Of a stretch of DNA of 64,000 nucleotides, positions 844 to 60,604 are shown in pieces (the first letter of the stretch is position 1; the number at the start of each line of letters is the position of its first letter). Under the pieces are notes generated by a model. That model ran no database searches. It saw nothing but the letters and a program-made list of their open reading frames with translations, and was not told the DNA's origin. A program made the position numbers and the translations under genes. This stretch comes from Ianthella basta. Taxonomy: Eukaryota > Porifera > Demospongiae > Verongiida > Ianthellidae. The stretch is from contig OZ025869.1 of the NCBI GenBank assembly GCA_964019415.1, positions 421,501-485,500 on the forward strand. The letters run 5' to 3'.

Positions 844-2104
844 ATGAAGCTGCTCGGTGTGCTGGTGTTGGCCTGCTTGCTACTCTCCCTGCCTCCTGCC
901 TTTGGGACTCATTCTCCAACTGCCAATACCACAGGACACTGCAAAGCAGGCCCCTGGGCTCCAACACCAGTGATAGGACTTCCAGGAAGAGACGGAAGAG
1001 ACGGACCTCGCGGGAAAGATGGTCTCCCTGGCCCTCCCGGTCCACGTGGACCCAGTGGAATAGGTCTTGGGGAAATACGTGAAATTGTGCGCTTGATAGC
1101 TGAAGAGGAGGTAGGGAACTTGACAACAATCGTGCATCAAAGCCCAGTCAAAGTAGTGGTGAATTGTGCTGACAGTTCATTGGGAGCAGTGAATACCCCA
1201 ACCCAGGCACCCTTCAACCAGACGCCATCCACCCCCACTACTGAGCTTCCAACTGGTGGCATGCTGACATACGAGTGTGCCAACACATCTAATCAGAACT
1301 GTCCTGGGTTGACTTTCTACAACCCTGCTAACTCATGCCGCGATGTATACCTTTGCAACCGGTTTCTCCCTTCTGGCAACTACTGGGTTCGGAGATATCA
1401 TTCTGATGATGGTTCCATCACGCTTGTCCGTGTCTACTGCTACATGAGGGAAGACAAGTGTGGGATTGGTGGAATTATGCGTGTGGGGTACTTGAACGTT
1501 CTCAACTCAACGACCAATTGTCCCTACCCTTTGACACTGTACAACGCATCAGGAACTATACTGTGCGGGCCGACTGATGATAGCAGCCAGTGCGATCAGC
1601 TGACTTTCCGTACTCACACTATACCCTACAATACTGTGCGTGGAAGGGCAGTCGGCTATGGGTATTACGCTAATTATGGATTTAACTATGGTGGCAGAGG
1701 CATTGATGACGCCTATCTCAGTGGATTGTCCATCACCAACAGAAATAATGGACAACGTTCACACATTTGGAGCTATGCAGCAGGGTATAGTGATGGTAGT
1801 TCCAATTCATACAACTGTCCCTGTGCTCGATATGCTGGTAGAGCAGCTCCATCATTTGTTGGTTGACTACTATTGTGAGTCAGGTGCTCACACGTCGCTA
1901 TCCAGGCAGTGGTACACCTCCAACCCACTGTGGGACAACAAGGGCTGCTACAGTGGTAGCAAGTGCTGCAACCCAAGTCATGCACCTTGGTTCCGGAAGT
2001 TCTTGAATGTGGAGGTTACTTCTGATATTGAAGTTCGCTGGTGCCATCCAGGTGGCTCTAATGACAAAGTTGGCATTGAACTGCTTGAAATTTATGTTTA
2101 CTAA
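844..2104 (+). pseudogene. Family A collagen-like secreted protein, copy A1, frameshifted
   Basis: The start is the ATG that begins MKLLGVLVLACLLL, as in the intact copies A2 and A3. The open frame runs 340 residues through the signal peptide, ten Gly-X-Y triplets, helical segment, Thr/Pro linker and fibrinogen-like block. It then stops at TGA 1864-1866. Compared with A2, the reading GGCACTGAC has become GGTTGAC, a 2-nt loss. The remaining ~80 codons, ending GIELLEIYVY, continue in another frame to 2104 and stay highly similar to A2 and A3. Promoter and signal peptide are intact, so a truncated secreted protein could still be made. This is either a young pseudogene or an assembly error; the rest of the sequence shows no decay. 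Confidence 0.8.
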
Positions 2105-3652
2105 CTGAGCAGCTGTGGTTTTCTGTAGGTTTCAGTAGCCAATTTTCTGCAGTGTACTTTACTGTAGCATTAGGTCACTGTTGCCATTTTCCTACGTATA
2201 GCATCCATTTCCTATAGTTTCTAGTTGTCAACTGTATGCAGCTGTACTTTACTTTTCATTAGATCTCAGTGGTCGTTTTTCCGTAACAGAAGTACTACAA
2301 ATCTGTACTGTAGTATGGCATTTGTCATGTAGTTTGAAAGATTCAATATGCTGCGCTCGATGGTGAACTCCAATTGTAATGGCACAAGTTGATTGCTGCA
2401 ATCAGACGTGATGATGCATCAGAATGCTGAATCAGCATCTTGTTCACATTCACTTGAGGTGGACATTTCTAAGCAAGCACTGCTTAGTACAGATGTCTTA
2501 TACTGTTATGTGCTATAGGTTTGCCTGTTTTGTGAGTTTGTTAGCTATACCATTTTGTCCCGCCACATGGACTGACCCCCAAATGCACCATGCCGGTTAA
2601 GGAGGGTCAGGGGGAGGTTCCAAGAGAAAATAATAACGTGAATCAAGTGGCCATTCACGAAATATGTATCCCATGGCATTTGCACAATATACCCTAAGAT
2701 GTTTTGCAATACTGCAACACACCACCACAACCAGCTCAAGTTACTTTGTTTACATACTGTAACACATTCCCATATTGTACTGTGACCTCAGATGTGATAG
2801 TATCATTGCATACCATGATGGGGTACAACAGACTAGTATTAGTGCACTTGCATATGAGATGCCAGCCTCCAACAAATGGAAATCAAGCTGACATGCAGTA
2901 TGCAGGTATGAACACACTGGCATGGATGTGCCAGAGCAGAAAAACGGCTTCCTGCTCGTTTGTTAAATGTGCAGTGACGGTGGTTTAGTCATAACTGATA
3001 TAACATGACACTATTTCTCCTATGAACGAAGTGAATTCATACATGCATGCTGTGCGCATGTGTGTGTGTGCCCTTTCACATGCTTCTTGTGATGCTGAAC
3101 TACTGCTCTATACAATTTGTGTGGAAACATTTATTGCTGGATTTGATTGTCATAGCGTATGTTACCATGCATTCTACAAGCAGTGCTGTATAGACAATGA
3201 TTTCTGTTTGCCCTAAGTACAGTCGTAATTTCTCTGTGCATATGTATGGGTCTTTTACTTATGCATGTGTTCTTGATTGTATGTCCCTTCATTCAATGGT
3301 GCGTGTGTGTGCAGAGGAAAGGGATTTAGGAATGTTACACATTTGCAACATTTGTGTGGACCATTCTATGTGAAATCTTTGAGTTGGTGCCTTTTAGTGG
3401 ACTGTCACCCAGATGTTGTCACTCCAGTGTTGGACCTTTTGAATCATTTTCAGCTGCAAATCTGCCAATGCCCTAATGAATACATAGAATCATGCATGCA
3501 GCTCAAATGAAGCTCCTTATTGAGTACACGAAGAGAGATCTAGTAATAGCTGCTCTCCTTATGCAAGTAGTCCAAAACCTGTAGTGAATTGATAAAGACG
3601 GCAGCTCTACTTTACTGAAGTTGTAGGGAGAGAAATCGTCGGCATACTTCAT
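2105..3652. other. 3' flank of A1 and unannotated sequence
   Basis: The first ~700 bp is the 3' flank shared with A2 (16049-16662) and A3 (40428-41000); for example, the AACACACCAC block near 2718 recurs in both. It is more diverged here than between A2 and A3. The rest, to 3650, holds only short unsupported open frames, and I recognise no gene. Confidence 0.6.
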
Positions 3653-3752
3653 GTCTTTTCAGATAATGTTGAGCTGGAGTACAAGCAGTAAGCAGCCAAC
3701 ATTCGTTCGCATAGTGTACCTCGCACAGCTTCCGCAGCGAGTATGCAATGTA

Positions 3753-6095: not shown

Positions 6096-6998
6096 CTACT
6101 TGGTGCACACAACACAGGACAGCTCTTTTGTCTGGTCATAATTTGGGCATGGAAGGCCACTGCTGCAGTGAGCCTCAACGTGGAACATCAAAGCACCGTT
6201 GGTGTTAGCTGCTGCTCCTTGTACTGTTTCGGGAGTCTTATCCAGGCAGATGTGCATGGTTCGGTAATGTGTACGATCTTCAGACACCAGCCACCCGCTG
6301 TACTCCACTGTCCATGTATCAGGACAGGTGTATCTTCCTGGTATCATGATCTGCTTGGAACGAGAGGATACTTCACACACAGCACAGGGGGCATTGTGCT
6401 GGAGTAAATCAGCCAGTGGTTGGCCACCATAGAATTGATATTCTGTACCGTACAAAATGGCATCACCCTCATTGCTAGTGGTTGCTTCAGGGTGGTACTC
6501 AATGTCATCTCCATTTGCTATACAGATATAGTTGGCTCCACCACCACGGTGTTCAAAGTGACTGCCTGCAGTGAGGCCTTCATAAACAAGTTCCGTTCCA
6601 GTAACATTCGGGCACACTGTCCTCCCCCAGCGGATGTAAGTTGTTCCTCCTGAGGCAGGTCCAGGAGGGCCCTGTTCACCAGGTGGTCCAGCAGTGCCAA
6701 CTGCTCCATCGGCTCCAGGTGCTGCAATGGTTGGTAGTGTTTCAGTGAGACATGCACAAATGGCAGACTTATCGCAAATGGTTTTGGAGAAAGTATCCAG
6801 CTTACCTCCTGGAGGGCCCAATGGTCCAGAGGAGCCATCACGGCCATCCCTCCCTGGTTGTCCTGGCAACCCATCCCTTCCAGGCAGTCCAGGGAGGGAG
6901 CAGGTAGAGCTGCTTTCTGCTTCCGCTCCAAAGTGGAGGAGGAGAAGGATGGTGCCAAACAGGGCAAGGTTCATCATATTTAAACTGTTCATTCTCAT
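6096..6998 (-). CDS. Family B1: short-chain (C4-type, spongin) collagen
   Basis: Exon 1 is 6998-6806 and exon 2 is 6721-6096, giving 272 residues. The 84-bp intron (6805-6722) has GTAAGC and CAG ends and splits a Gly codon region in phase 1. Splicing restores perfect Gly-X-Y register. Residues 1-27 form a signal peptide. Residues 37-87 are 17 uninterrupted Gly-X-Y triplets. From about 91 (TTYIRWGRT) to the end (KELSCVVCTK) is the C-terminal domain of sponge short-chain collagen C4, with its conserved cysteines. Known members are secreted matrix collagens, and chain assembly through the C-terminal domain is inferred. I chose MRMN as start because it matches the paralogs; the upstream in-frame ATG at 7037 lies at or before the likely transcription start. 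The intron is a multiple of three without stops, so its retention would stay in frame. Confidence 0.93.
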   Translation of the reverse strand: MRMNSLNMMNLALFGTILLLLHFGAEAESSSTCSLPGLPGRDGLPGQPGRDGRDGSSGPLGPPGGKLDTFSKTICDKSAICACLTETLPTIAAPGADGAVGTAGPPGEQGPPGPASGGTTYIRWGRTVCPNVTGTELVYEGLTAGSHFEHRGGGANYICIANGDDIEYHPEATTSNEGDAILYGTEYQFYGGQPLADLLQHNAPCAVCEVSSRSKQIMIPGRYTCPDTWTVEYSGWLVSEDRTHYRTMHICLDKTPETVQGAAANTNGALMFHVEAHCSSGLPCPNYDQTKELSCVVCTK

Positions 6999-8133: not shown

Positions 8134-8416
8134 GGATGTATACACACATTGGGATGCACACACACACATATATATGTGTGCATGTGTATCTCGATGTGTG
8201 TAATCCACTGCACATGTACTAGCTAGAAGCACTTGGAAGGCATTGTGTGTGTATGTGTGTGCTGGTTCACCTGTCCCATGTACCATCATGGAGGTTGTCA
8301 CATCTGTTTACATAGTGACATGTACAATGTGTTATAGTTCATCACTCTACATGTGTACATGATGTGTGTGCTTGTATGTGTACATGTATTGTGTGTTACC
8401 CTCTAGTTCTCTTCAG

Positions 8417-8576
8417 ATTCAAGAGGGACTATGCCCAACAGCACATCCCAGTCCTCCTCTCCTCCAGAGGAATGGACCCCTCTCTCATCATACCCAAGGC
8501 ACACAGGAAGGGGAGGAAGAGGAGGGGCAGGAGAAGGGGACAGGGAGGGCCATTTCAGCAAGCAATGACAAGGAAT
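8417..8576 (+). pseudogene. Lone copy of the FKRDYAQQ exon
   Basis: After a CTCTTCAG acceptor the sequence reads FKRDYAQQHIPVLLSSRGMD and continues with a basic tail. It is the terminal exon of the module whose longer copies lie at 24813-25555 and 61586-61938. The preceding exon (DFAVHSW...) is missing here; its place is taken by intron-like sequence shared with 30780-30890 and 48640-48754. This is a relic exon carried along with the upstream flank of B1. I do not recognise the protein. Confidence 0.6.
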
Positions 8577-8615
8577 CATGTGATCATTGGTGCATGGTAT
8601 GTGTGTATGTGTACA

Positions 8616-8621
<6 letters not shown>

Positions 8622-10757: not shown

Positions 10758-10765
<8 letters not shown>

Positions 10766-14785: not shown

Positions 14786-16048
14786 ATGAAGCTGCTCGGT
14801 GTGCTGGTGTTGGCCTGTTTGCTACTCTCCCTGCCTCCTGTCTTTGGGACTCATTCTCCAACTGCTAATACCACAGGACACTGCAAAGCAGGCCCCTGGG
14901 CTCCAACACCAGTGATAGGACTTCCAGGAAGAGACGGCCGTGACGGACCTCGCGGGAGAGAGGGTCTCCCTGGCCCTCCCGGTCCACGTGGACCCAGTGG
15001 AATAGGCCTTGGAGAAATACGTGAAATTGTGCGCTTGATAGCAGAAGAGGAGGTGGGGAACTTGACAACAATCATGCATCAAAATCCTGTCAAGGTAGTG
15101 GTGAATTGTGCTGACAGTTCATCTGGAGCAATGAATACCCCAACCCAGGCACCCTTCAACCAGACACCATCCACCCCCACTACTGAGCTTCCAACTGGTG
15201 ACATGCTGACATACGAATGTGCCAACACATCTAATCAGAACTGTCCCGGGTTGACTTTTCACAACCCTGCTACCTCTTGCCGCGATGTATACCTCTGCAA
15301 CCGCTTTCTCCCTTCTGGCAACTACTGGGTTCGGAGATACCATTCTGCTGATGGTTCCTTCACACTTGTCCGTGTCTACTGCTACATGAGAGTAGACAAG
15401 TGTGGGATTGGTGGAATCATGCGTGTGGGGTACATGAACATTACCAACACAACGGCTAGCTGCCCCCATCCTCTGACACTGTACAACGCATCTGGAACTA
15501 TACTGTGCGGGCCGACTGATGGTAACAGCCAGTGCGATCAGCTGACATTTCGAACTTACACTATACCCTACAATTCTGTGTGTGGAAGGGCAGTCGGCTA
15601 TGGGTATTATGTTAATTATGGATTTTACTATGGTAACAGAGACATTGATGACGCCTACCTCAGTGGATTGTCCATCACCAACAGACACAATGGACAACGT
15701 TCGCACATTTGGAGCTATGCCGCAGGGTATCGTGAATCTAGTTCCAATTCATTCAACTGTCCCTGTGCTCGATATGCTGGCAGAGCTCCTTCATCATTTG
15801 TTGGCACTGACTACTATTGTGAGTCAGGTACTCACACATCGATATCCAACCAGTGGTACACCTCCAACCCACTGTGGGACAACAAAGGCTGTTACAGTGG
15901 TAGCAAGTGCTGCAACCCAAGTCATGCACCATGGTTCCGAAAGTTCTTGAACGTAGAGGCTACTTCTGATATTGATGTTCGCTGGTGCCACCCAGCTGGC
16001 ACTAGTGACAAAACTGGCATTGAACTGCTTGAAATTTATGTTTACTAA
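14786..16048 (+). CDS. Family A2: collagen-like secreted protein with fibrinogen-like start and uncharacterised C-terminal domain
   Basis: One uninterrupted exon, 420 residues. Residues 1-21 are a signal peptide (MKLLGVLVLACLLLSLPP). Residues 45-74 are ten Gly-X-Y triplets. Residues 75-92 (EIREIVRLIAEEEV) look helical and could trimerise. Residues 110-140 form a Thr/Pro-rich linker with N-glycosylation sequons. Residues 165-207 (CRDVYLCNRFLPSGNYWV, then VYCYM) resemble the opening of a fibrinogen-related domain but lack its calcium-binding C-terminus. From about 296 to 420 comes a Cys-rich domain with SHIWSYAAGY, FVGTDYYCES, SKCCNPSHAPWF and GIELLEIYVY. I recall similar SPSGYYW/HIWTFAAG proteins, of unknown function, from sponges and cnidarians. 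It is probably an extracellular-matrix or lectin-like protein. It faces gene B2 on the opposite strand. Confidence 0.88.
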   Translation: MKLLGVLVLACLLLSLPPVFGTHSPTANTTGHCKAGPWAPTPVIGLPGRDGRDGPRGREGLPGPPGPRGPSGIGLGEIREIVRLIAEEEVGNLTTIMHQNPVKVVVNCADSSSGAMNTPTQAPFNQTPSTPTTELPTGDMLTYECANTSNQNCPGLTFHNPATSCRDVYLCNRFLPSGNYWVRRYHSADGSFTLVRVYCYMRVDKCGIGGIMRVGYMNITNTTASCPHPLTLYNASGTILCGPTDGNSQCDQLTFRTYTIPYNSVCGRAVGYGYYVNYGFYYGNRDIDDAYLSGLSITNRHNGQRSHIWSYAAGYRESSSNSFNCPCARYAGRAPSSFVGTDYYCESGTHTSISNQWYTSNPLWDNKGCYSGSKCCNPSHAPWFRKFLNVEATSDIDVRWCHPAGTSDKTGIELLEIYVY

Positions 16049-18981: not shown

Positions 18982-19305
18982 TGTGGAGGACTGGACCTCT
19001 ATTGTGTTTTAGCTGTGTTTACCTGTGTGTTTATTAATCTTTGTATTAGGCAGTTGAGTTGTTTGGTTATATTGTCTTGGGCCTGTAATCTATAAATAGT
19101 TGCTTATGTGTTAGTTATTTAGTGTGTCTGTTTTTAGTGTTTTTCGTATGTAATGTACCTATAGTTGGTTACATCACGTGCTTAGGAGTAGAACTGATGG
19201 TGGACACGTGTGTGAGTGCCTTGTAGTAACTGTTGCCCTTGTGATTTGATTAATCCTTGTTGTTCGTGGTTAGCGTCCGTTCGAGCCCTCATTCGGTCCC
19301 TTACA
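18982..19305 (+). repeat. 5' LTR
   Basis: 324 bp, TG...CA ended, indistinguishable by eye from the 3' LTR. A primer-binding site beginning TGGTGGCAG follows within a few bases; the matching tRNA is not assigned. Confidence 0.93.
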
Positions 19306-19380
19306 CGTGGTGGCAGTTGGTGGGATTGATCGACAGCAGGAGTTGCCGAGATCAACACCGCGGAAGTGACTGTTTAGCGA

Positions 19381-22300
19381 ATGACAACGAGATCGGGTGT
19401 TCGTTACAGACGAGAAGAGTCCAGTATGTCGGGAGAGTCGGTGGACCTGGCGCAAATGATGAAGACCCTCCTGGAAGATAGACAGCGGCACGAGGAGGAG
19501 CTAAGGGAGGAACGGCGACGGCGCGAGGAAGAGAACAGAGTACGAGAGGCAGAACTACGCGAAGAACGCCAGAGACGCGAGGAAGAGCTCGCGAAGCGCG
19601 AAGAAGAGTCCAGGAAGCAGATACTCCTGTTGCAGGCACTCGCTGAAGGCGTGAAGAAGCAAGGTGAGGCAGCTGCACACAAAGCTGAGAGCGATAAGGA
19701 CGTGAGGGTGGCAAAATTGACAGAGAATGATGACATTGAAGCATACCTTACGACCTTTGAACGGCTGATGGGTGCATATGAGGTAAAGAAGGACAAGTGG
19801 GCTTTCAAGTTGGCTCCACAGTGGTGGGGAAAGCACAACAGGCTTATGCTGGGCTCTCAGTCGATGATGCTAGTGACTATGATCAACTGAAGTCAGCAAT
19901 TCTCCGACGGTATGACATAACTGAGGAGAGTTATCGTCAGCGCTTCAGAGCAGCAAAGCCGGGACCAGGAGAGTCCAATCGGGAGTTGGCAGCAAGGCTT
20001 GAAGACCTTGCAGGTAAGTGGATGAAAGCATGCACATCCATTGATGAGCTCAGGGACCTGGTGGTCCTGGAACAGCTCCTAATTAAACTCCCTGAGGATG
20101 TCCGCATTTTTGTCAAGGAGAGGAAGCCAAGGACCAGTGTAGAAGCTGGTCGACTGGCTGATGATTATATTGCAGCGAGAAAGGAGGATGCGGCAGAGAA
20201 AGGGGAAGAGGAGAAATCCCCAGATCGACGTCAATCCCTCCGATGTGGTAAGTGCCGGAAGTTTGGTCACTCGGCACGAGACTGCAGACAGTCCCTACCT
20301 AAGTGGGAGCGAGAGAAGGACAAACGGGAGGCCGGCAAGAAGCCTAAGAGAGACCTGAAGGACATTGAGTGTTTTAATTGTCACCAGAAGGGTCATTATG
20401 CCTCTAACTGTCCTAGTAATGCTCTATTCTGCAGGGAGAAATTGCCAGGGAAGGTGGCAGAGCAAGCAATGACCAGTACTGGCCTGACCAGGAAGGGGTC
20501 AGTTGAAGGGAGACCTGTTGACAAGATCCTCCTAGACACTGGGTGTTCGAGGACACTGGTGCATCGGGAGCTAGTTCCCAGAGACAGGCTGCTTGAAGGA
20601 GAAGCAGTGGCCATTCGCTGTGCCCATGGGGACACAGTATTGTACCCGGTAGCACTGTTGCAGGTTGCTGTAGGTACTAAGATTATGGAAGTGAGAGCTG
20701 CAGTGTCGGAGACATTACCCGTTGATGTGTTACTGGGGACTGATGTTCCGGAACTCCCTAACCTGTTGCGTACCGACTACCATGCTGATGTCATGGTGGT
20801 TGTAACACGGGCTCAAAGACGTCAGATGCTCGCAGAGGAGGAAGATACTCACCAGAAAGAATGTGAGTCAGGTGCTGCTAGCACGAGTATAGAGGAAGTG
20901 GGTGAGTGGATGTCTAACTTGGAGGATGATCTCTTCAGAGGAGGACGAACCCGAACCCAACGTTCCAGGGCCCAGAAACGGGAGGAACGACGTGCCTATG
21001 CTAGGGTCATGGCGGAAGAGGATGCTTCAGCAGTGGATGATGTGCCATCGGAAAAGGGTTCTCACCCCCTTGACATCTCCGCAGACCAGCTAAGAACCCT
21101 ACAATCATCAGACATGACCCTGGAAGCAGTTCAACGGGCAGCAGATGGGCAACCATGCTCAGCGGGGGTTGGTTTCTTCCGAAAGGATGGGCTGCTCTAT
21201 CGCCGGTGGGCTCCACCTGGGCGTGATGAGGAGATGGCCACAGAACAGCTGGTCCTCCCAACTCAGTGTCGTAAGACGGTCCTTGAAGTAGCCCATGATA
21301 TTCCACTATCAGGCCATCTGGGAAAGGGGAAGACTGCTCAACGCATTTTACAGAGATTTTACTGGCCTACATTGTACCGGGATGTTGCAGAACACTGCCG
21401 TACCTGTGAGGTGTGCCAGAAGACATCCCAACGCAGGCCCAGGAGAGTGCCACTGTCACCGCTGCCGGTGATTGAGGAGCCGTTTGGCCGAATCGCAATG
21501 GACATTGTGGGTCCATTGCCCAAAAGTCGTTCAGGAAAGAGATATGTCCTGGTCATCTGTGATTATGCCACGCGGTACCCAGAGGCTGTGGCATTACGAT
21601 CCATTGATGCCGAACATATTGCAGAGGAGTTAGTGACAGTGTTTTCTCGAGTTGGTGTTCCCCGAGAAATACTAACTGATCAAGGAAGCAATTTCACATC
21701 CCGTCTTCTCACTGAGTTGTACCGGCTGTTGCATGTACATCCAATTCGCACCTCCCCTTACCATCCTCAAACTGACGGCCTGGTTGAGCGTTTCAATCAG
21801 ACACTCAAAGCGATGCTCCGGAAGTCTGCACAAACAGAGGGCAAGGACTGGGACAAGCTCCTCCCATTCATGCTATTTGCATATCGGGAAGTGCCCCAAG
21901 CCTCCACGGGGTTCTCCCCATTTGAACTCCTTTATGGGAGGGCTGTCCGAGGACCTTTAGACATCTTACGTGAGTCTTGGGAAGCCGAGAAGAGGTCTGA
22001 TGAGAGTGTTGTTTCGTACATGCTGTTATTGCGGGAGAAGCTGGAGAAGATGTCCCAGCTGGCTCGTAGCAACCTGCAGTCGGCACAGAGCGCCCAAAAG
22101 GCATGGTATGATCGGACAGCACGAGAGAGATCGTTTCAGGTGGGAGACCAGGTATTGATCCTCCTTCCAACCTCAACCAACAAGCTGGTGGCAGAGTGGC
22201 AGAGTCCTTACCGCATTATTAAGCGAGTGGGAGAAGTTGACTATGTGGTTCACATGCACGATCGCAGGAAGAAGAGCCGACTCTTCCATGTAAACATGCT

Positions 22301-23809
22301 GCGGAAGTGGCAGGTGCCTGGTTCCACTGACACTGGCTACTGGTGTGAAGAAGTGCTGGAAACCACTGAAGATGACATACCGGTATGGAGTAGTGACAAT
22401 GGCAACACAGTCAATGAAGCTCGACTTGCGGAGAGGTTGAGCCAGGAGTACCGTGCTGCATTGACAGGCGTGCTGGAGGAGTTTTCAGATGTCTTCCAGG
22501 ACAAGCCTGGGAGGACTTCGGTCATTGAACATGCCATCGAGACTGGTTCAGCACAGCCAGTGAGACTTCCACCGTATAGGTTACCACATGCCTACCGTCA
22601 GGCAGTGAAGGATGAGCTAGAGGAGATGATTTCCTCAGGAATCATTGAACCAGCGGCGAGTGAGTGGAGTGCCCCTATCGTCCCAGTAAAGAAGAAGGAC
22701 GGGTCCTTGCGACTCTGTGTGGACTATCGGCGACTCAACCAGGTTTCAGTGACTGATGCCTATCCAATGCCCAGGGTAGATGACCTCATTGATCGTGTAG
22801 GAAAGTCCACCTACATCTCAACTTTGGATCTGACACGAGGCTATTGGCAGGTCCCGGTGGCTATGAAAGACAGGCCAAAGACAGCCTTTACTACCCCATT
22901 TGGACTGTATCAGTTCAATATGATGCCGTTTGGGCTGAAGGGGGCACCCGCAAGAGGCTCATGGACCGTGTCATTCATGGGCTTGACTTTGCTGCCGCAT
23001 ACTTAGATGATTTGATTGTTTTCAGTGAGTCATGGGAGAACCACTTGTCCCACATCCAAATGGTTTTGGAACGACTCCGTCAGGCAGGATTGACTGTGAA
23101 GGCCAGAAAGTGTGAGTTGGGGGCTGCTGAATGTGTCTATCTAGGCCATATTGTTGGCAGTGGAACGGTCAAGCCGGAAGGAGATAAGACTGTTGCAGTA
23201 CAGCAGTTTCCAACTCCTGAGACAAAGAAAACAGTACGTTCCTTTTTAGGACTTACCGGCTACTACCGTCGTTTCATGGAAAACTATTCGACAGTCGCTG
23301 CACCTCTCACTGACCTCACTAAAAAGGACAGCCCCCATAAGGTAGTATGGACAGCGGCTTGTGAGCGAGCTTTCACCAAGCTCAAGGAGTTACTCACCAC
23401 TGCACCCGTACTTATGAGTCCCGACTTTGAAAAGTCATTTATACTCCAGACTGATGCATCAGAGCAGGGTGTTGGTGCTGTTCTCAGCCAACTAGGTGAC
23501 GATGGTCTAGAACATCCAGTGGCGTACTGGAGCCGGAAGTTACTTCCACATGAACAAAGATACTCCACCATCGAAAAGGAGTGTTTGGCTATTAAGCTGG
23601 CAGTCCAGGCTTTCCGTGTCTACCTGCTTGGTCGGCCCTTTCACATTGAGACAGATCATCGTTCCCTCGTATGGATGGAGAGGCTCAAGCACACAAACAA
23701 CCGCCTGGCTCGTTGGAGCCTTGCTTTACAGCCCTTCCAGTTCACCATCCGCCATCGTGCTGGGAGTGCCAATGGCAATGCCGATGCCCTCTCGCGCGCA
23801 ACAAACTAG
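19381..23809 (+). pseudogene. gag-pol coding region of the LTR element (fossil)
   Basis: Coding region of the element above. An N-terminal charged coiled-coil-like stretch (repeats of REERRRREE type) precedes gag. Recognisable motifs are CGKCRKFGHSARDC and CFNCHQKGHYASNC (zinc knuckles), LLDTGCSRTLVH (protease), HCRTCEVCQK and HPQTDGLVERFNQT (integrase), and LRLCVDYRRLN and YLDDLIVF (RT). QTDASEQGVGAVLSQ marks RNase H. It is broken, with about two frame interruptions overall. Confidence 0.88.
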
Positions 23810-23839
23810 TTAGCTTGTTGCTGAAGAAGGGGGGAGGGG

Positions 23840-24163
23840 TGTGGAGGACTGGACCTCTATTGTGTTTTAGCTGTGTTTACCTGTGTGTTTATTAATCTTT
23901 GTATTAGGCAGTTGAGTTGTTTGGTTATATTGTCTTGGGCCTGTAATCTATAAATAGTTGCTTATGTGTTAGTTATTTAGTGTGTCTGTTTTTAGTGTTT
24001 TTCGTATGTAATGTACCTATAGTTGGTTACATCACGTGCTTAGGAGTAGAACTGATGGTGGACACGTGTGTGAGTGCCTTGTAGTAACTGTTGCCCTTGT
24101 GATTTGATTAATCCTTGTTGTTCGTGGTTAGCGTCCGTTCGAGCCCTCATTCGGTCCCTTACA
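23840..24163 (+). repeat. 3' LTR
   Basis: 324 bp, preceded immediately by a purine-rich polypurine tract (GAAGAAGGGGGGAGGGG) and followed by the ATGTC target duplication. Confidence 0.93.
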
Positions 24164-24812: not shown

Positions 24813-25555
24813 GAGACGACGGGTCGGATCTCGCGCCCTGCAAGACACGATCACCAAGACCAGACTGACACTCCACCGTCTTCCTGGTATGTACGTACGT
24901 GTGTCTTTGTGTATGCACATTTTGTTCTGTTATAATTAGTTTCTGTTTGCTACCTTATTCTGCTATCCTAACCCTTCCTGTCTCTCCTCCTCCCTCTGCT
25001 GTAGTGACCCAGTTTCAAGTTCCACATGACGTTGTGGACATCCTGAAGGCCCAGAGCCATGGTCCAACCACTCAACTCATCACATCTGCTGTATGTCACA
25101 TCTGTTTACACAGTGCCATGTACAGTGTGTTGTTTGTAGTCGTCACATACATGTGTACATGATGTGTGTGTGTGTACCTGTGTTGTGTGTAGGACTTTGC
25201 AGTACACAGCTGGGGCCCCAAGGTGCAATTGGCCTTTGATACTCAAGTGGGAGTGACCCCACGGAGGATAGAGATTGAGAGGTGAGGGGAGGGGGAGTAG
25301 GAGTGTGTGCATGTGTGCGCGCATGGTCTCGTGTAATGTTGTTCTTCAAACTGTTTCCTCACTATTCCTTGTTGCTCCTTCCCATCTCTCTTCAGATTCA
25401 AGAGGGACTATGCCCAACAGAACATCCCAGCCCTCCTTTCTTCCAGAGAAGTGGACCCCTCTCTCATACACAGGACACACAGGAAGAGGAGGGGCGGGGC
25501 AGGAGGAGGGGACAGGGAGGACCGCTTCAGCAAGCAAGGACAAAGCATCTTGTGA
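24813..25555 (+). CDS. Four-exon module of unknown gene (fullest copy)
   Basis: Exons 24813-24886, 25005-25090, 25193-25281 and 25396-25555 each have canonical AG acceptors, and the first three have GT donors. They join in one frame: LQDTITKTRLTLHRLP, then TQFQVPHDVVDILKAQ, DFAVHSWGPKVQLAFD, TPRRIEIER and FKRDYAQQNIPALLSS, followed by a basic Gly-rich tail and TGA at 25553-25555. In the 61.6 kb copy the last exon ends instead at a GTAACC donor, which is lost here. I do not recognise the protein; the charged helical RIEIERFKRDYA stretch suggests a cytoskeletal or ciliary protein only weakly. The start is unresolved, and this may be a partial duplicated gene rather than a working one. Confidence 0.5.
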
Positions 25556-25773
25556 GCATTGGTGCACTTCTAAGGGGTCCACTTGGGGGGTGGAGTGTTG
25601 ACACCCCACCCCACTAGCTATAAGATTACCAGGAGTGCAAAAAGTGGGGTACACAAAAATTGGAACAAGTTCCGTAATCTTACAGTTATAGAAATGAAAT
25701 TTGTTGGCTCTGTAGAAAATGCATGTAGCCAATTGCATGCAAAGATGATCTGCCTGGAGGCTGCAATGACCAG
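25556..25773. repeat. Flank shared with 61940-62160
   Basis: Downstream flank of the exon module, matching 61940-62160 until the TIR element interrupts it at 25774. Confidence 0.7.
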
Positions 25774-33659: not shown

Positions 33660-34167
33660 TGTAAGCTGTTCATTCTCTGTCTATCAATGTAATGAACAAG
33701 CTTTCCTATCACCAATCCTATAGCAACAGTAGTGTGTCAAAGTGTGAGTGCCTTTGTACCCTGCATACACATCTACTGGATACGTATTGCTCAATATTCG
33801 CATATCACTTTCATGTCATCACTTGCAATCAGCACTAATGCATCACATTCCAACCTCTCCTATCTGAGACCTTAGTTACAGTAGCGGCTGTCTCTCACCA
33901 TACAAGTACACATGTAGAGTACCAACTGTACTACTAGCTACCATGTATGTGGGGTGTGGGCACAAGGGCAGGAGTTTACTTAATGGACAGTTGAGTTGAG
34001 GCAGGAAGGAGATAGTGAGGAGGGAGGTGATAGGAATGTGATGCATGTATGATATGATACATGAAGTCAGAGGTAGAGTAGGTGTATAAGCACTCACAGT
34101 TTGCGGCACTGCTGTACTGGGATTGGTGAGAGGTGAAGATTGTGAGAAGTACTTTGATCGTTAAAGA
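33660..34167. other. 5' flanks of two opposed family B pseudogenes
   Basis: 33660-33850 is the upstream flank of B3. 33850-34167 is the divergent interval before the inverted pseudogene at 34168 and holds no supported gene. Confidence 0.5.
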
Positions 34168-35150
34168 ATGAACAATTTCAGTGTCATAAACTTTGCCTGT
34201 TTGGCACCATCTTTCTCCTCCTCCACTTTGAAGTGGAAGCAGAAAGCAGCTCTACCTGCTCCCTCCCTGGACTGCCTGGAAGAGATGGGTTGCCAGGACA
34301 ACTGTGGAAGGATGGCTGTGATGGCTTGTCTGGAGCTGTAGGCCCTCCAGGAGGTTAGCTGGAGTCTGTCTCCTGACCATTTCTTGCCAGTATGACAAAG
34401 CTGCTGCACATAGAGTCATGGCATAAACATGTATTCAATGATAACTACATGCATACCAACTGTTGTCACACGTGGAGTTGATGGGAACGGTAGCATAGCT
34501 GGACCTGGTGATTAGGGTCCTCCTGGCCTCCTGGTGAACCAGTCATCTTAGTAGAAATGATGGATGTTGGCTGAGGTCAGACACAAGCGTTGGAGGGTGC
34601 ACCCAAACAGTACTGGACATAAGCTCATTTATGGTGGCCTTACTGCAGGAGGTGATGTTTGACAAGCTTGTGGAGTGCTAGCTAATTGTACATTGCAATT
34701 GGAGCCGAAGGCAAGTGAATTGTGCAGTACTGAATATCAGTCAGTAAGTAAAGTGGCACTGAGTGATTTCATCAACCGCAATGACCCCTGTGCTGCATCT
34801 GAAGTGTTCTTTGAGATTCATTCCAAGCTGATCATGACCCCAGGAAGATGCACCTGCTCTGGTGCATTGACAATAGAGTACAGTGGGTGACTGGTAAGAG
34901 AAGACTGTACCCTCACTAATCTGTACACATCTGTGTGGACAAGGCTCCAGAAACAGTGCCAGGAGCAGAGGCTGACACACATGTTGAGACTTAGGCCAGT
35001 TATAATTATCAGAGCCCAACTTATGAATCTACAAAGGCGCTTCCTTGCGTTTTGCACACTGAGCTGAGTGACAACCATAGAAGCAGTGGAGCAGTTTAGT
35101 TTATGTGCTATTGAACAGTGTTCACCATATTGCACATGTATAGGCCTGTA
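34168..35150 (+). pseudogene. Inverted, strongly decayed family B copy
   Basis: The only family B copy on the plus strand. ATG at 34168 opens a frameshifted signal peptide and collagen exon (CTGGAAGAGATGGGTTGCC region). Exon 2 remnants include NDPCAASEVFFEIHSKLIMT and EYSG near 34780-34890. It ends in a decayed 3' UTR matching the B-family UTR (about 35075-35150). There are many indels and stops. It is clearly older than the other copies. Confidence 0.8.
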
Positions 35151-36544
35151 GGCGTTATAGATTGGACGTGGACACTATCTGGCCCATGCATTAGTTGTAT
35201 GTGTTAACTTGAGGACACTGATAATGTGACTACTAACATCATTGTGCTGAGGCTGGCATCACGTTGTGTTACACTGTCTGTAACTGTACTGGTGGTAGTG
35301 GGTATCAACTACAAAGACAAGTGTTCCTCTATGCACACAGCTGGTGAGTACGTGACTCCTACTGTGCAGCTGCAGTCTACAAAGCATTCCTCCCCCACTA
35401 GCTACAGCTGGTCAGTGCTGAGTACGTGACTCCTACTGTGCAGCGGGTAGTCTACAGAACCTCACCTAGCTACAGCTGTAGAGGTACAACACAACATTCC
35501 AATAACAGTGTAGTCACGTTACTAGTGTCTACACCTGTTGTAGTAAGGTAAATGATCACGACTACTACAACATTCCTTGTCAGTGTGACGTAGCCAGAGC
35601 TGGCTATATGACCGTAATACCACACACACTGCACATGTAGTGTGGAGAGAATCACTCAACACACAAAGTGCAGATATTAATGTGCTTTCAACGTACACAT
35701 CACTCAGGACAACATGGCACACGAAATGAGCATATGTCCATATGTATGTATACGCATACATGTACTGTATATACTCCAACACAACTTGAACTAGTACTGA
35801 TACATACACTGTTATGCTTCCACATGTGTCCACAAATGTGCACCACAGGTACAATATACACATGGACACGTATTGTCATGTGCATACATGCTCTCTCAGT
35901 TTTGTCTTCAGTATATACTTCTTGTGCTGTGTGGGGTGGGGCGTTCTTGTGTGGGGCAGGAACTCAGCCGATTAAAAGGTTTTGGTCCTTTACTAACTAG
36001 TCCAATTAATGGTGATTTTAAAATTGGCTAGCCTCATGCACACGGAAGTATGCTTTGGCCATGTCATCTCAGGCACTGAGGCATATCTCTATATTCGTAG
36101 GTCCTGGGGGTGTGGTGTATATGGGATGGATGTTAGTGACAGGAGGTAACAACATTGTGGTATATAGTGTACACACGCACACACACACACATCATATTTA
36201 CACATCTTGTTAGGTACATATTCCCTCCATAAGGAGCAGGGAAGGAATTCGGCCATTTTAAAGTGTAGATCTGTTAGTAGTCCAGTATAGTAGCTAGGCA
36301 CCCACTGCTCCAGTCTACCCACTCACAGCTGGTCAGTGCTGAGTATGTGACTCCTACTGTGCAGCTGCAGTCTACAGAGCATTCCTCCCCCACTAGCTAC
36401 AGCTATAGAGGTACAACACAACATTCCCAATAACAGTGTAGTCATGTTAACTGGTGACTGCCCCCTGTTGTAGTAAGGTAAACCATCACCAGAGCAACAA
36501 CATTCCTCCATCCTTCACTCGCAGTATTAACAAGAGACACATGC
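35151..36544. repeat. Non-coding interval with dispersed repeat copies
   Basis: Contains the TACGTGACTCCTACTGT repeat at 35340-35490 (two tandem copies) and 36325-36415. A block at about 35770-35880 resembles 63185-63280. The remainder has no recognised gene. Confidence 0.65.
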
Positions 36545-39164: not shown

Positions 39165-40427
39165 ATGAAGCTGCTCGGTGTGCTGGTGTTGGCCTGTTTG
39201 CTACTCTCCCTGCCTCCTGCCTTTGGGACTCATTCTCCAACTGCCAATGCCACTGGACACTGCAAAGCAGGCCCCTGGGCTCCAACACCAGTGATAGGAC
39301 TTCCGGGAAGAGACGGAAGAGACGGACCTCGCGGGAGAGATGGTCTCCCTGGCCCTCCTGGTCCACGTGGACCCAGTGGAATAGGTCTTGGGGAAATACG
39401 TGAAATTGTGCGCTTGATAGCAGAAGAGGAGGTGGGGAACTTGACAACAATCGTGCATCAAAATCCTGTCAAGGTAGTGGTGAATTGTGCTGACAGTTCA
39501 TCTGGAGCAGTGAATACCCCCACCCAGGCACCCTTCAACCAGACACCATCCACCCCCACTACTGAGCTTCCAGTTGGTGGCATGCTGACTTACGAATGTG
39601 CCAACACATCTAATCAGAACTGTCCCGGGTTGACTTTTCACAACCCTGCTACCTCTTGCCGCGATGTATACCTCTGCAACCGCTTTCTCCCTTCTGGCAA
39701 CTACTGGGTTCGGAGATACCATTCTGATGATGGTTCCTTCACGCTTGTTCGTGTCTACTGCTACATGAGGGAAGACAAGTGTGGGATCGGTGGAATTATG
39801 CGTGTGGGGTACTTGAACGTTACCAACACAACGGCTAGTTGCCCTTACCCTCTGACACTGTACAACGCATCTGGAACTATACTGTGCGGGCCAACTGATG
39901 GAAACAGCCAGTGCGATCAATTGACATTTCGTACATACAATATCCCATACAATTCTGTGTGTGGAAGGGCAGTCGGCTATGGGTATTACTATAATTATGG
40001 ATTTTACTATGGTTCCAGAAACATTGACTCCGCCTATCTTAGTGGGTTGTCCATCACCAACAGAAACAATGGACAGCGTTCACACATTTGGAGCTATGCA
40101 GCAGGGTATAGTGATGGTATTTCCAATTCATTAAATTGCCCCTGTGCTCGATATGGCGGTTCATCTCCTCAATCGTTTGTGGGCTCTGATTACTATTGCG
40201 AGTCAGGCGTCCATACATCACTATCCAGGCAGTGGTACATTTCCAACAAGCTGTGGGATGGTGAAGGCTGTTACAGTGGTAGCAAGTGCTGCAACCCGAG
40301 TCATGCACCGTGGTTCCGAAAGTTCCTGAATGTAGAGGCTACTTCTGATATTGAAGTTCGCTGGTGCCATCTAGGTGGATCCAATGACAAAACTGGCATT
40401 GAACTGCTTGAAATTTATGTTTACTAA
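39165..40427 (+). CDS. Family A3: collagen-like secreted protein, intact
   Basis: 420 residues, the same length as A2, in one exon. I start at the MKLLGVLV methionine at 39165; the frame is open further upstream, but that part overlaps the TATA box. The layout is as in A2: signal peptide, ten Gly-X-Y triplets (GLPGRDGRDGPRGRDGLPGP), helical EIREIVRLIAEEEV, Thr/Pro linker, CRDVYLCNRFLPSGNYWV and C-terminal domain ending GIELLEIYVY. It differs from A2 mainly near residues 325-365 (RYGGSSPQSFVGSDYYCES, NKLWDGEGCY), so surface segments vary while the cysteine framework is fixed. It faces B4. Confidence 0.88.
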   Translation: MKLLGVLVLACLLLSLPPAFGTHSPTANATGHCKAGPWAPTPVIGLPGRDGRDGPRGRDGLPGPPGPRGPSGIGLGEIREIVRLIAEEEVGNLTTIVHQNPVKVVVNCADSSSGAVNTPTQAPFNQTPSTPTTELPVGGMLTYECANTSNQNCPGLTFHNPATSCRDVYLCNRFLPSGNYWVRRYHSDDGSFTLVRVYCYMREDKCGIGGIMRVGYLNVTNTTASCPYPLTLYNASGTILCGPTDGNSQCDQLTFRTYNIPYNSVCGRAVGYGYYYNYGFYYGSRNIDSAYLSGLSITNRNNGQRSHIWSYAAGYSDGISNSLNCPCARYGGSSPQSFVGSDYYCESGVHTSLSRQWYISNKLWDGEGCYSGSKCCNPSHAPWFRKFLNVEATSDIEVRWCHLGGSNDKTGIELLEIYVY

Positions 40428-46763: not shown

Positions 46764-47670
46764 CTACTTGGTGCACACAACACAGGACAGCTCTTTTGTC
46801 TCGTCATAGTTGGGACATGGAAGGGCACTGCCGCAGTCAGCCTCAACATGGTACAGCAGAGCACCGTTGGTGTTAGCTGCTGCTCCTGGTACTGTTTCGG
46901 GAGTCTTATCCAGACAGATGTGCATGGCTCGGTAATGGGTACGATCTTCAGACACCAGCCACCCGGTGTACTCCACTGTCCATGTATCAGGGCAGGTGAA
47001 TCTTCCTGGTATCATGATCTGCTTGGAACGAGAGGATACTTCACACACAACACAAGGGGCATTGTGATCAGACAAATCAGTCAGAGCTTGTCCATCTCTG
47101 GTTTCATATTCCACACTGTACAAAACACTACGACCTAAGTTTCTAGTGGTAGCTTCAGGGTGGTACTCGACATCATCTCCACTTGCAGTACAGATATAGT
47201 TGGCTCCTCCACCCTGGATGGTCCAGAAACTGCCTGCCATGAGGCCTTCATATACTAGCTCTGTTCCAGTAACATTCGGGCACACTGTCCTCCCCCAGCG
47301 AATGTAAGTTGTTCCTCCTGAGGCTGGTCCAGGAGGGCCCTGTTCACCAGGTGGTCCAGCAACACCATCTGGCCCATCAGCTCCAGGTGCTGCAATGGTT
47401 GGTAGTATTCATTACTGCCTTCAACAAGCAGCAGCATTGTCTAAATGGCATCACAGTGGTAGTATAGTCCAGCATACCTCCTGGAGAGCCCACTGGTCCA
47501 GAGGAGCCATCACGGCCGTCCCTCCCTGGTTGTCCTGGTAACCCATCCCTTCCAGGCAGTCCAGGGAGGGAGCAGGTAGAGCTGCTTTCTGCTTCCGCTC
47601 CATAGTGGAGGAGGAGAAGGATGGTGCCAAACAGGGCAAGGTACATGACATTAAAACTGCTCATTCTCAT
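46764..47670 (-). CDS. Family B4: short-chain (C4-type) collagen
   Basis: Exon 1 is 47670-47478 and exon 2 is 47389-46764, giving 272 residues. The 88-bp intron (47477-47390) uses GTATGC rather than GTAAGC as donor and the same phase-1 site. The signal peptide (TILLLLHYGAEA) is followed by Gly-X-Y triplets with one substitution, GSP for GPP, at the end of exon 1. Exon 2 carries the complete C4-type domain (SFWTIQGGGANYICTASGDD to CVVCTK). I start at MRMSS because the upstream in-frame ATG (47739) lies between the TATA box and the likely transcription start. It faces A3. Confidence 0.93.
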
Positions 47671-48529: not shown

Positions 48530-48754
48530 AATCTGTGCATATACTCAACTGCACAATTTAATACTATTATATCAGAAGTTACTGGTGGGGCAATGTGTGT
48601 ATGTGTGTGTGTGTGTACTGATGTATTGTGTCATCAGGAGGTTGTTTACATAGTGACATGTACAGTGTGTTATAGTTCATCACTCTACATGTGTACATGA
48701 TGTGTGTGCTTGTATGTGTACATGTATTGTGTGTTACCCTCTAGCTCTCTTCAG

Positions 48755-48904
48755 ATTCAAGAGGGACTATGCCCAACAGAACATCCCAGCCCTCCTCTCC
48801 TCCAGAGGAGTGGAGCCCTCTCTCATCATACCCCAGGCACACAGGAAGGGAATGGGCGGAGCAGGAGGAGGGGACAGGAAGGACTATTTTTCAGCAAGCA
48901 AGGC
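48755..48904 (+). pseudogene. Lone copy of the FKRDYAQQ exon
   Basis: After CTCTTCAG it reads FKRDYAQQNIPALLSSRGVE and PSLIIPQAHRKG; the preceding exon is absent. It lies about 1 kb upstream of the B4 TATA box, matching the arrangement at B1, B2 and B5. Confidence 0.6.
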
Positions 48905-52085: not shown

Positions 52086-53450
52086 ATGAAGCTACTCAGT
52101 GTGCTAGTGTTGGCCTGTTTGCTCCTCTCCGTGCCTCCTGCCTTTGCCAGTGCCAATGCCACAGGACAGTGCAATTCATCTCCCTGGGTTCAAGGTCCAA
52201 TGTTGGGGCTTCCAGGGAGAGATGGCTGAGAGGGACCACGTGGGCGTGACAGATTGCCAGGACGTGAGGGCCTCCCTGGACCATCTGGACCAGCAGGTAA
52301 AGAGGGGGCAGATGGAGAGCCGGGAAGCAATGGCTCTAATGGTATGCCTGGCCCTCCTGGCCCACCTGGACCCAGTGGAATTGACTTTGCTGAGATATGA
52401 GAGAGTGTGCACTTGATTGCTGAAGAGGAAGTGGGGAACTTGACGAGAGCCAGCGCTGTGCCTCAAGACCCCATCAAGGTGGTGGTGCAGTGTGCCAGCA
52501 ATGCATCTGGAATAGCAGTTCCTCCCACCCAGACACCCTCCAGCCCCACTAGTGAGCCACCAACCTCTACTGGTGGCATGATCACTACTCTTCCACCTTA
52601 CCAGTACTCCAACACGTCTAGTGGTAACTGTCCTGGGTTCACTCCCTACAACCCAGCCACCTCATGCCACAGTGTTCTGCTCTGCAACCGCTTTCTCCCT
52701 TCAGGATACTACTGGGTGTGGAGATACCATCCCCATGACCTGTCCTACTCTCCAATACGCGTCTACTGCTACATGAGTGAAGACAAGTGTGGGATAGGTG
52801 GAGTTATGTGTGTGGGGTATTTGAACGTTACCAACTCCACCAGTTGCCCCAACCCTCTGACACTGTACAATGCATCAGGAAAGCTGTTGTGTGGACCAAC
52901 TAACCCTGACAGGTTTAAGTGCGATCCTCTGACATTCCACACTTATCACATCCCTTACAATTTTGTGTGTGGAAAGGCAGTCGGCTATGGGTATTATTAT
53001 AATTATGCTTTCCACCATTCTGCTTATAGTGGATACAACACAATCGATAATCCCTATCTCAGTGGGTTGTCTATCACTAACCAGTACAATGGACAACGAT
53101 CACACATTTGGAGCTATGCAGCTGGGTATCGTGAATCTAGTTCCAGTACATTCAACTGTCCCTGTGCTCTAAATGCTGGTAGAGCTCCTCCATCATTTGT
53201 TGGCACTGACTACTATTGTGAGTCAGGTGCTCACACGTCGCCATCCAGGCAGTGGTACACCTCCAACCCACTGTGGGACCGTAAAGGCTGCTACAGCGGT
53301 AGCAGGTGCTGCAACCCCAGTCGTGCACCATGGTTCTGGAAGACCTTGAATGTAGAGGCCACTTCTGATATTGAAGTTCGCTGGTGCCAACCAGCCACTG
53401 TTACTAATGACAAAACTGGCATTGAACTGCTTGAGATTTATGTATACTAA
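52086..53450 (+). pseudogene. Family A4: longer collagen-like paralog with two premature stops
   Basis: From ATG 52086 the frame continues in register to 53450 (454 codons plus stop) without any frameshift, but it contains two TGA codons. One lies in the first collagen triplets (after GLPGRDG) and one just after the collagen stretch (in AEI-stop-ESVHL). Both sit where intact copies have Arg (CGT), so CGA to TGA decay at CpG is likely. The collagen part has 20 triplets, twice that of A2 and A3, with one Gly lost (RLP). The rest is complete, from LIAEEEVGNLT through SHIWSYAAGY to GIELLEIYVY. It could be a very young pseudogene or an allele. It faces B5. Confidence 0.8.
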
Positions 53451-58555: not shown

Positions 58556-59208
58556 TAGTCTCACGTAGCTCAGACCCTTTCCTCCATTTCTACTGTTGCA
58601 TAATAGGGAGGAAAGGGTCTGGGAGTTTTCCTAAGCATAAGCTGTTTCACCCATGCACTGCCACTGTTCACTTAACACCTTTGTTGGATTATAATTCAGA
58701 GGTGTTGATTAGGTGTTACACGATGCGTGTGCACGTCTATACAGCAACAAAGACTGAGATGGCAAACTGCTACTTCTGTAAACAACTGCAAACGGTGACA
58801 GATGTATTTTCTGGTCTTCCCTGCACTCGCTCAATGACAAGGGCATCAATCTGTAAATAGTGATTTACTGTAGCCAGTAGGAAGCGATACGAAAATATCA
58901 CGACCATTGATGATTTCTAAGATGGCTTGCATCTGCTCTGGCTTTAGATCTTGGAACCCTGCTTCGGCCATTGCCACACGCACTAACGCGGTATTATGGT
59001 CTCGTTCCACTTCGTCTTTGCTCACTCCAACACTTGCTGCCATTTTCGATGACTCGCTTATGACAACTGTGGTACCACATCAAAGAGGTCTTATATTCAC
59101 ACCTTGTCCATCTTTCCACAGACTTTGAACAGTTACTGAACTTACAGGCCTATCCACCTAGTTATTGCACAATAACAAAAAGGAATAGGTCTAGGCTACA
59201 TGAGACTA
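58556..59208. mobile_element. TAGTCT-family TIR element carrying a RecQ-like exon, copy 2
   Basis: Left end TAGTCTCACGTAGCTCAGAC, inverted right end GTCTAGGCTACATGAGACTA. It is the duplicate of 27829-28437 inside the larger segmental duplication. Hairpins of the CCCTTTCC...GGAAAGGG type sit just inside the left end. Confidence 0.6.
58846..59043 (-). pseudogene. RecQ-like helicase N-terminal fragment
   Basis: 65 codons on the minus strand: MAASVGVSKDEVERDHNTAL, then FQDLKPEQMQAILEIINGRD and FVSLPTGYSKS. This matches the start of RecQ-type DNA helicases (LKPEQ-x-AI, GRDVFVSLPTGYGKS) up to the Walker A loop. Gly of the P-loop GKS triad is replaced (TGYSKS), and the frame ends a few codons later. 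It lies inside a TIR element, so it is probably a captured exon. Confidence 0.65.
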
Positions 59209-59688
59209 TATATATGCATGTTCATTTGTGTATGGTTTTGTATGCATAAGTCGCCTTCACATGTGTGTTTGTATTGTTCATCTTCGTATGTATACCTGCC
59301 TCTACAACTGTGAACTACTGCATTCATCTCACACACAAACACTGAGAATCCATGCATTGTAATGACATCATTCCACATAGTGGCTAATGATGTCATATGC
59401 TGTCAATTGGCCAACATTCCATTCAGAGAATGGCTGGCATCCCATGCACTCATGTGGACTGACCAATCAAATACAACAGAATTGTACACAACTACTGCCA
59501 TACTGACATTGTACAATGCCATGTATGTACCTACTGTACGTAAGTGCTCCAGTTGTACTAGAAGTCCACAGCTCCTATTGAGCTCAATGGTAATACCTAC
59601 AGGCCTATACATGTACAATACTGGAAACTCTGTTCAGTAGCACACAAACTAAAACTAGAGAGTTCCACTGCTTCTATGGTCCTCCACT
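59209..59688. repeat. 3' flank and UTR of B5
   Basis: Family B downstream block; closest to the 28970-29258 copy, with a short deletion near 59502. Confidence 0.75.
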
Positions 59689-60604
59689 CTACTTGGTGCA
59701 CACAACGCAGGACAGCTCTTTTATCTGGTCATAGTTGGGGCATGGAAGGCCTGCGCTACCGCAGTCAGCCTCAACGTGGTACAGATGAGCACCAGCCGTG
59801 TTAGCTGCCCTTCCTATTACTGTTTCAGGAGTCTTGTCCAGGCAGATGAACATGGATCGGCGATGGGGATAGCGTTCAGACATCAGCCACCCGCTGTACT
59901 CCACTGCCCATGTATCAGGGCAGGTGTATCTTCCTGGGATCATGATCTGCTTGGAACGAGAGGACACTTCACACACAGCACAAGGGGCATTGTGTTCAAG
60001 CAAATAAGTCAGAGCTTGTCCACTTCTGGTTTCATATTCCACACCATACAAAACACTATCACCTAAGTTTCTAGTGGTAGCTTCAGGGTGGTACTCAGCA
60101 TCATCTCCACTTGCTGCACAGATGTAGTTGGCTCCCCCACCCTGGTGTGTATAGTGACTGCCTGCAGTGAGGCCTTCATAAACTAGCTCAGTTCCAGTAA
60201 CATTCGGGCACACTGTCCTCCCCCAGCGAATGTAAGTCGTTCCTCCTGAGGCCGGTCCAGGAAGGCCCTGTTCACCAGGTGGTCCAGCAACACCATCTGG
60301 CCCATCAGCTCCAGGTGCTGCAATGGTTGGTAGTGTTTCATTAGTGCATTCAACAAGCAGCAGCTTTGTCTAAATGGCATCACAATGGTAGTACGTAATT
60401 GTCCAGCTTACCTCCTGGAGGGCCCACAGGTCCAGACAAGCCGTCACGACCATCCCTCCCTGGTTGCCCTGGTAACCCATCTCTTCCAGGCAGTCCAGGG
60501 AGGGAGGAGGTAGAGCTGCTCTCTGCTTCCACTCCGAAGTGGAGGAGGAGAAAGATGGTGCCAAACAGGGCAAGGTTCATGACATTGAAACTGTTCATTC
60601 TCAT
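59689..60604 (-). CDS. Family B5: short-chain (C4-type) collagen
   Basis: Exon 1 is 60604-60412 and exon 2 is 60317-59689, giving 273 residues. The 94-bp intron (60411-60318) has GTAAGC/CAG ends. The signal peptide reads TIFLLLHFGVEA. The cysteine after SSST is replaced by Ser (TSSLPG instead of TCSLPG), so a Cys conserved just before the helix in B1, B2 and B4 is absent here. Gly-X-Y triplets and the C-terminal domain are otherwise complete. It is most similar to B2, consistent with the shared segmental duplication. It faces A4. Confidence 0.93.

Follow-up and report, generated by a model that had tools for sequence, protein, structure and literature searches.

The stretch of DNA analyzed here, called the window, comprises 64,000 nucleotides from the sponge Ianthella basta (contig OZ025869.1, here C2; C2:421501-485500) and carries genes of two collagen-like protein families, A on the plus strand and B on the minus strand. 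The genes follow one another in the order A1-B1-A2-B2-A3-B4-A4-B5, with the strands and coordinates that an initial annotation of the window had given: A1 at 844..2104, A2 at 14786..16048, A3 at 39165..40427, and A4 at 52086..53450 (all +), and B1 at 6096..6998, B2 at 29260..30172, B4 at 46764..47670, and B5 at 59689..60604 (all −). The start codons lie at 844, 14786, 39165, and 52086 for A (+) and at 6998, 30172, 47670, and 60604 for B (−), and the series is bounded by the ATG of A1 (844) and that of B5 (60604). A2 and A3 are intact, collagen-like, single-exon genes of 420 aa. A1 is broken near the C-terminus, where the frame shifts after 340 aa, and A4, which has the frame of a longer A subfamily, is broken by two in-frame TGA codons. 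All four B genes are intact after splicing, compared with two of the four A genes. They have two exons (193 + 626 nt in B1) and a GT-AG intron of 84 (B1), 94 (B2), 88 (B4), or 94 nt (B5) inside the collagen stretch, the removal of which leaves an unbroken Gly-X-Y stretch of ~17 triplets in a protein of 272 aa (273 aa in B5). Within each family, the copies in the window differ by 8-27%. Fragments of a further B gene, B3, were found at 32089..33604 (−), and a degenerate inverted B copy with stops and frame changes at 34033..35152 (+). Five such plus-strand copies lie within 300-550 kb of the array described below; they were considered as a third gene and rejected, being degenerate at all five places read.

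The spacing is 12,921 bp from A3 to A4 and 12,934 bp from B4 to B5, as noticed initially (12.9 kb), and a self-comparison of the window (self-blastn) returned paralogous blocks at the offsets expected from that annotation. A unit length of about 13 kb did not extend to the surrounding array, where A-to-A distances, measured by hand, range from ~7 to 45 kb. When the genome (209 Mb, 96 contigs) was searched with A3 and B1, a single array of ~390 kb was found at C2:315-704 kb; the searches give lower bounds, with 122 of 392 candidates scored for B1 and 100 of 802 for A3. The alternating duplication was thereby upheld, while the proposed four-fold module turned out to be a slice of an array that continues on both sides. 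Among the matches listed, the count came to 20 loci of A, every one on the plus strand, and 26 of B, every one on the minus strand. Shorter A pieces (331.6 and 521.3 kb), B pieces (307.0, 408.3, and 453.7 kb), and the five inverted B copies on the plus strand were kept apart from this count. The order of the 46 loci, entered by hand, is BBBABABABABBABABABABBABABABAABABABBABABABABBAB. It has 39 runs; shuffled orders averaged 23.6 and never exceeded 37 (0 of 100,000 shuffles reached 39). The alternation is interrupted by runs of B and a single A-A neighbour pair. Neighbouring A and B genes do always converge, as the initial annotation had put it, but with fixed strands and alternating order this equals "always diverging", and convergence was therefore rejected as a separate signal. 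Outside the array, the matches listed, judged by reading, include no A and B less than 100 kb apart. If any match to the fibrillar collagen C-propeptide domain (COLFI) is counted as A-like, one at C2:831.5 kb sits 46 kb from a B match at 877.8 kb.

Whether A and B copies were passed on as couples was examined by matching every A with the B toward which it is transcribed (convergent couples) and, in a second analysis, with the B from which it points away (divergent couples); each pairing covered 12 of 19 possible couples, and the trees included broken copies. Agreement of the two branching orders had been named beforehand as the check on a paired history, and disagreement as its refutation. The trees were incongruent under both pairings. 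For convergent couples, the approximately unbiased (AU) test rejected the tree of the other family at p 1.3e-6 (A data) and 3e-4 (B data), and for divergent couples at p 3.4e-9 (A data) and 3.2e-6 (B data). The couples of a co-inherited module, which would have matching A and B trees, were thus not recovered.

Near-identical tracts in the array overlie homology that is older and more diverged. The clearest recent one, 350.3-364.8 kb, holds the divergent couple B354 and A363 (array copies on C2 carry names of this kind) and differs from a copy at ~523-537 kb at 0-4 positions per 500 bp; at its left edge the differences rise to as many as 56 per 500, and at the less sharp right edge to 2-13 per 500. 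Block 1 is near-identical over ~327.8-332.8 kb and then shows 9-22 differences per 500. Where both ends are visible, the tracts measure ~5 and ~15 kb. The A436 and A618 loci, 182 kb apart, are 99.6% identical over 4.26 kb together with their surroundings (434784-439045 and 616855-621114), the sequences around B627 and B703 match without a difference for 2,927 bp, and around B601 and B676 the identity is 99.92% over 3,927 bp. Near-identical segments 75.4-75.6 kb apart were also seen between C2:601-628 and 676-704 kb (L010/L011 and L016/L018), and represent either a very recent duplication or an assembly duplicate. When genes were compared with their flanks (n = 8), the gene was less diverged in two cases (A460/A570, p 1e-7), more diverged in three (among them B370/B481 and A377/A460, p 7e-11 and 2e-9), and not different in three. 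Such patchy divergence is what patchy copying would leave.

We consider it probable, with good confidence, that the window belongs to a tandem array built from a two-gene repeat and shaped by ordinary unequal exchange and copying, rather than by selection for the pair. The founding repeat would have held one A on the plus strand and one B on the minus strand, and the alternation would follow from that repeat, so that selection for the pair is not needed to account for it. Exchange between repeats by unequal crossing-over and non-allelic copying, to which the patchwork of tracts points, may have grown, shrunk, and shuffled the array, and A and B copies would thereby have been re-paired instead of being passed on as fixed couples.

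Several observations weigh against this interpretation. A-B distances are weakly correlated (Mantel test; convergent r 0.281, p 0.030; divergent r 0.293, p 0.023), with rank versions not significant (p 0.15 and 0.16); with recent duplicates removed, the values are r 0.305, p 0.048 for convergent (11 couples) and r 0.064, p 0.31 for divergent pairing (10 couples). The couples A363-B370 and A473-B481 cluster together in both trees (support 86 and 97). Near-identical duplicates in the trees are non-independent, three of the eight gene-flank comparisons are without a difference, and two of the differences have other sources: in block 1, where the gene is less diverged, the tract edge at 332.8 kb, and in block 2, where it is more diverged, a diverged A348 tail lying beyond the tract. 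The 98-100% identical blocks, finally, could include assembly error. The weak correlation and the one shared grouping indicate that some joint duplication occurred; on the whole, there has been some joint duplication but much re-pairing of A and B.

An assembly artefact, in which uncollapsed haplotypes or misjoins would have created the copies, is suggested by the 98-100% identical blocks lying ~75, 172, and 190 kb apart. The sequence at 300-550 kb, however, is contiguous over 250 kb and contains no N, and the window copies stand 8-27% apart, which makes a misassembly of the window unlikely; from spacing alone, a retrotransposon between A2 and B2 also appears to be present in one copy only. 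Collapsed or misjoined haplotypes, foreseen in the initial annotation as a refuting outcome, are hence unlikely for the window, while the near-identical blocks elsewhere in the array may include assembly duplicates. As an explanation of the array, an artefact is very improbable.

The copies were modelled up to 549 kb, with five A and five B loci lying beyond. Of 17 A loci, 12 were intact and 3 broken, and 2 were fragments that lacked an aligned start; the corresponding numbers for 22 B loci were 14 intact, 4 broken, and 4 without an aligned start. The A genes fall into a short and a long subfamily, ~0.25-0.29 apart, and the broken A498 is distant from both. The median ratio of nonsynonymous to synonymous divergence (dN/dS) between intact genes was 0.32 in A, where 62 of 66 pairs were used, and 0.42 in B, where 87 of 91 were; pairs with dS <= 0.03 were dropped. 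On average, purifying selection acts on intact A and B genes, as would be expected for secreted matrix proteins, and no positive selection on whole genes was seen on average in these pairwise comparisons.

Promoters were compared over 300 bp upstream of 13 A and 13 B genes, including broken ones; recent duplicates among these copies make the sample partly non-independent. TATAAAA was present in all 13 A and all 13 B promoters. TGACATCA and a MEF2-like site were each found in 12 of 13 A promoters and in no B promoter, and TGAGTCAGC (11 of 13) and CACGTG (8 of 13) in B promoters and in none of A, at a background of 2-9% of random 300-bp stretches from the array region. Such motifs are here labelled MEF2-like, T-MARE, E-box, and CRE-like. 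No 8-mer was common to 70% of the promoters of both families, and the only such 7-mer was TATAAAA; 18 6-mers were listed as common to A and B promoters (both strands counted). The promoter contents argue against simple promoter-level co-regulation but would be compatible with distant control.

These data bear on the joint-dosage or co-expression module suggested by the initial annotation. In such a module, both proteins would be required for a single matrix, the genes would be switched on together, and they would be kept as a couple for that reason. The alternation across 46 loci, the average purifying selection on both families, the weak correlation of A-B distances, and the TATA box shared by all promoters would fit such a module, and in Amphimedon, short-chain collagens rise jointly in the adult (PMC3447736). 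Against it stand the incongruent trees, the otherwise different promoters (TGACATCA and the MEF2-like site in A, TGAGTCAGC and CACGTG in B), the two of four window A genes that are broken next to intact B genes, and the couples broken up by B runs and the A-A pair. Joint retention by selection was accordingly not borne out by trees, gene integrity, or promoters, and we regard the module as unlikely.

A conserved TGAGTCAGC core, an E-box in 8 of 13 copies, and a TATA box lie upstream of B, at about −220 to −70. The genome contains six occurrences of an exact two-part pattern from this region, each of them in the array and directly upstream of a B locus. Farther out, a repeat (repeat C) was found at 8280..8620 (1.3 kb upstream of B1), 30779..31044 (0.6 kb upstream of B2), 48643..48901 (1.0 kb upstream of B4), 61457..61937 (0.9 kb upstream of B5), and, without a B gene close by, at 25094..25566. 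Genome-wide, the 52 matches listed are all within C2:323-712 kb, and identity to the copy at 8280 ranges from 73 to 96%. A coding exon was rejected: substitution rates by phase were 0.098, 0.094, and 0.056, without a single fast position beside two slow ones, and indels are present; the repeat is not coding-like. It could be a control element.

Four of the five window copies of repeat C are located in the B-to-A gap, on the upstream side of the B gene, as would suit divergent, head-to-head B-A units that share a control region in the manner of collagen IV gene pairs, and the cleanest recent tract likewise carries a divergent couple, B354-A363. Vertebrate collagen IV genes are arranged head-to-head (PMC5395295), and the array resembles them in having two collagen genes side by side on opposite strands. 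It differs in that A is without an NC1 domain, the gaps measure kilobases, and the arrangement is repeated ~20 times. Since the B-to-A gaps of several kb leave no compact two-way promoter, the trees are incongruent under divergent pairing too, and the correlation in that pairing is lost without recent duplicates, such units are very improbable. Collagen IV NC1 (C4) matches above the Pfam cut-off were found in the same genome in 8 of 33 rows, at C1:2252467-2313050 and C1:3377822-3378067. Type IV collagen genes have been reported in Ephydatia (PMC7385117).

The two families were described initially as unrelated, secreted, and collagen-like. Unrelatedness was supported, as A3 and B5 have nothing significant in common outside Gly-X-Y; secretion is suggested by signal-like N-termini, identified by reading. 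The Gly-X-Y stretch of A comprises 10 triplets in A1-A3 and ~22 in A363, the longest of the long subfamily. The window copies of A matched COLFI at 16-21 bits, below the cut-off of 26.2, over ~50 of its 233 positions, about a fifth of the domain. One array copy, A590, reached 28.5 bits, above the cut-off, at positions 25-73 only. Among PDB sequences, A had weak matches to the beginning of fibrillar C-propeptides (E 0.005 to 0.011), and a single-sequence structure prediction of A3 was uninformative (mean predicted local distance difference test score [pLDDT] 34). A thus resembles the fibrillar C-propeptide in ~50 matching residues and differs from fibrillar collagens in the partial match and the 10 to ~22 triplets. 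It has neither a complete COLFI domain above the cut-off nor a long uninterrupted triple helix, and a fibrillar collagen was ruled out by domain coverage and helix length. A would rather represent a short collagen carrying a COLFI/fibrinogen-like head. A collagen stretch with a fibrinogen-like head is reminiscent of ficolins, and an immune role of A is thinkable by analogy.

Spongin short-chain collagens (SSCC) were reportedly described by Exposito in 1991 and Aouacheria in 2006, and B presumably resembles proteins named short-chain collagen C4. In spongin short-chain collagens, a short collagen domain is followed by an NC1-like C-terminal domain, to which that of B might correspond. The Pfam Collagen match of B lies below the cut-off. 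The C-terminal domain holds ten cysteines that are invariant in the four window copies (45, 75, 121, 124, 141, 167, 194, 201, 212, and 215), and the HSQ motif is absent from the four translations by reading. In PMC5395295, spongin short-chain collagens are given ten cysteines, seven shared with collagen IV and three spongin-specific, and no HSQ. B agrees with this description in the number of its cysteines, by count and not by alignment to a named SSCC, as well as in the short Gly-X-Y stretch and the missing HSQ. It differs in alternating with an unrelated second collagen-like family in one long array and in the lack of a Pfam C4 match at its loci: PF01413 (C4) gave no match in the array at E up to 1. 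Nothing credible was found for B among PDB sequences (best E 0.24), and an AlphaFold model of the C-terminal domain from the four window sequences was uninformative (pLDDT 29). Judged from sequence, there is good but incomplete support for classing B as SSCC-like, in which case its role would be that of a spongin-type short-chain collagen.

Change along the genes was followed in 12-codon segments of 12 of the 14 intact B genes (two near-identical ones dropped) and 8 of the 12 intact A genes (four dropped). In B, the proportion of nonsynonymous differences (pN) exceeded the gene-wide silent mean (pS 0.205) in segments starting at codons 121, 161, 165, 169, 217, 221, and 241, while other parts of the C-terminal domain barely change (pN down to 0.006). 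In A, a single segment (329) lay above the silent mean, at 1.01. Variable segments clustered as strongly in 17 of 2000 codon permutations for B and in 287 of 2000 for A. By reading, segments 121 and 217 of B occupy matching places in two half-repeats, between Cys-Pro and the next Cys. One might conceive of the array as a recombining repertoire of matrix blocks, in which loop shuffling would diversify the assembly of B chains, with A as partner in the same matrix. Segment 121 alone of the seven exceeds its own local silent rate (0.234 vs 0.144), which counts against diversification and lowers the probability of a repertoire to a faint one. Relaxed constraint explains the B loops at least as well as diversification.

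Read as the product of ordinary unequal exchange and copying, the array corrects the tempting view of paired genes kept by selection, and it provides an example of how a matrix gene array evolves, in which alternation persists while couples are shuffled. It also offers a locus where short-collagen copy number and chain diversity are testable in living animals. In the freshwater sponge Ephydatia muelleri, slippage, unequal crossing-over, and segmental duplication have been held responsible for gene clusters (PMC7385117). The likeness lies in tandem or segmental duplication in a sponge, and the difference in the genes named there, integrins and E3 ligases. A literature search found no paired collagen array named in titles or the openings of abstracts, with most subscription journals outside its coverage.

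Longer gaps between the genes had been attributed to insertions. This held for the gap between A2 and A3, which contains a long terminal repeat (LTR) retrotransposon of 5,182 bp and, in addition, extra repeat pieces. The element lies between A2 and B2 (18982..24163, +) and has identical 324-bp LTRs and a 5-bp target-site duplication. One open frame encodes SCAN (49-135), protease (238-322), integrase (493-662), and reverse transcriptase (969-1057) domains, and a second, overlapping frame spans 22793-23809. The distance from A to repeat C, measured by hand, is 10,308 bp with the element and 5,125 bp at two further sites; this spacing suggests that the near-identical copies at 618 and 694 kb lack the element and that it was inserted recently. 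The element has the integrase upstream of the reverse transcriptase, an order that we take to be Gmr1-like, and a SCAN-like gag. SCAN has been linked to the gag of Gmr1-like elements (PMC3424704). Between A2 and the element, at 16624-18057, an open frame of 477 aa without a Pfam match was observed. We assume from its appearance that it resembles the end of a retroelement gene. A 192-nt repeat is present in five spaced copies at 10052-14352, between B1 and A2.

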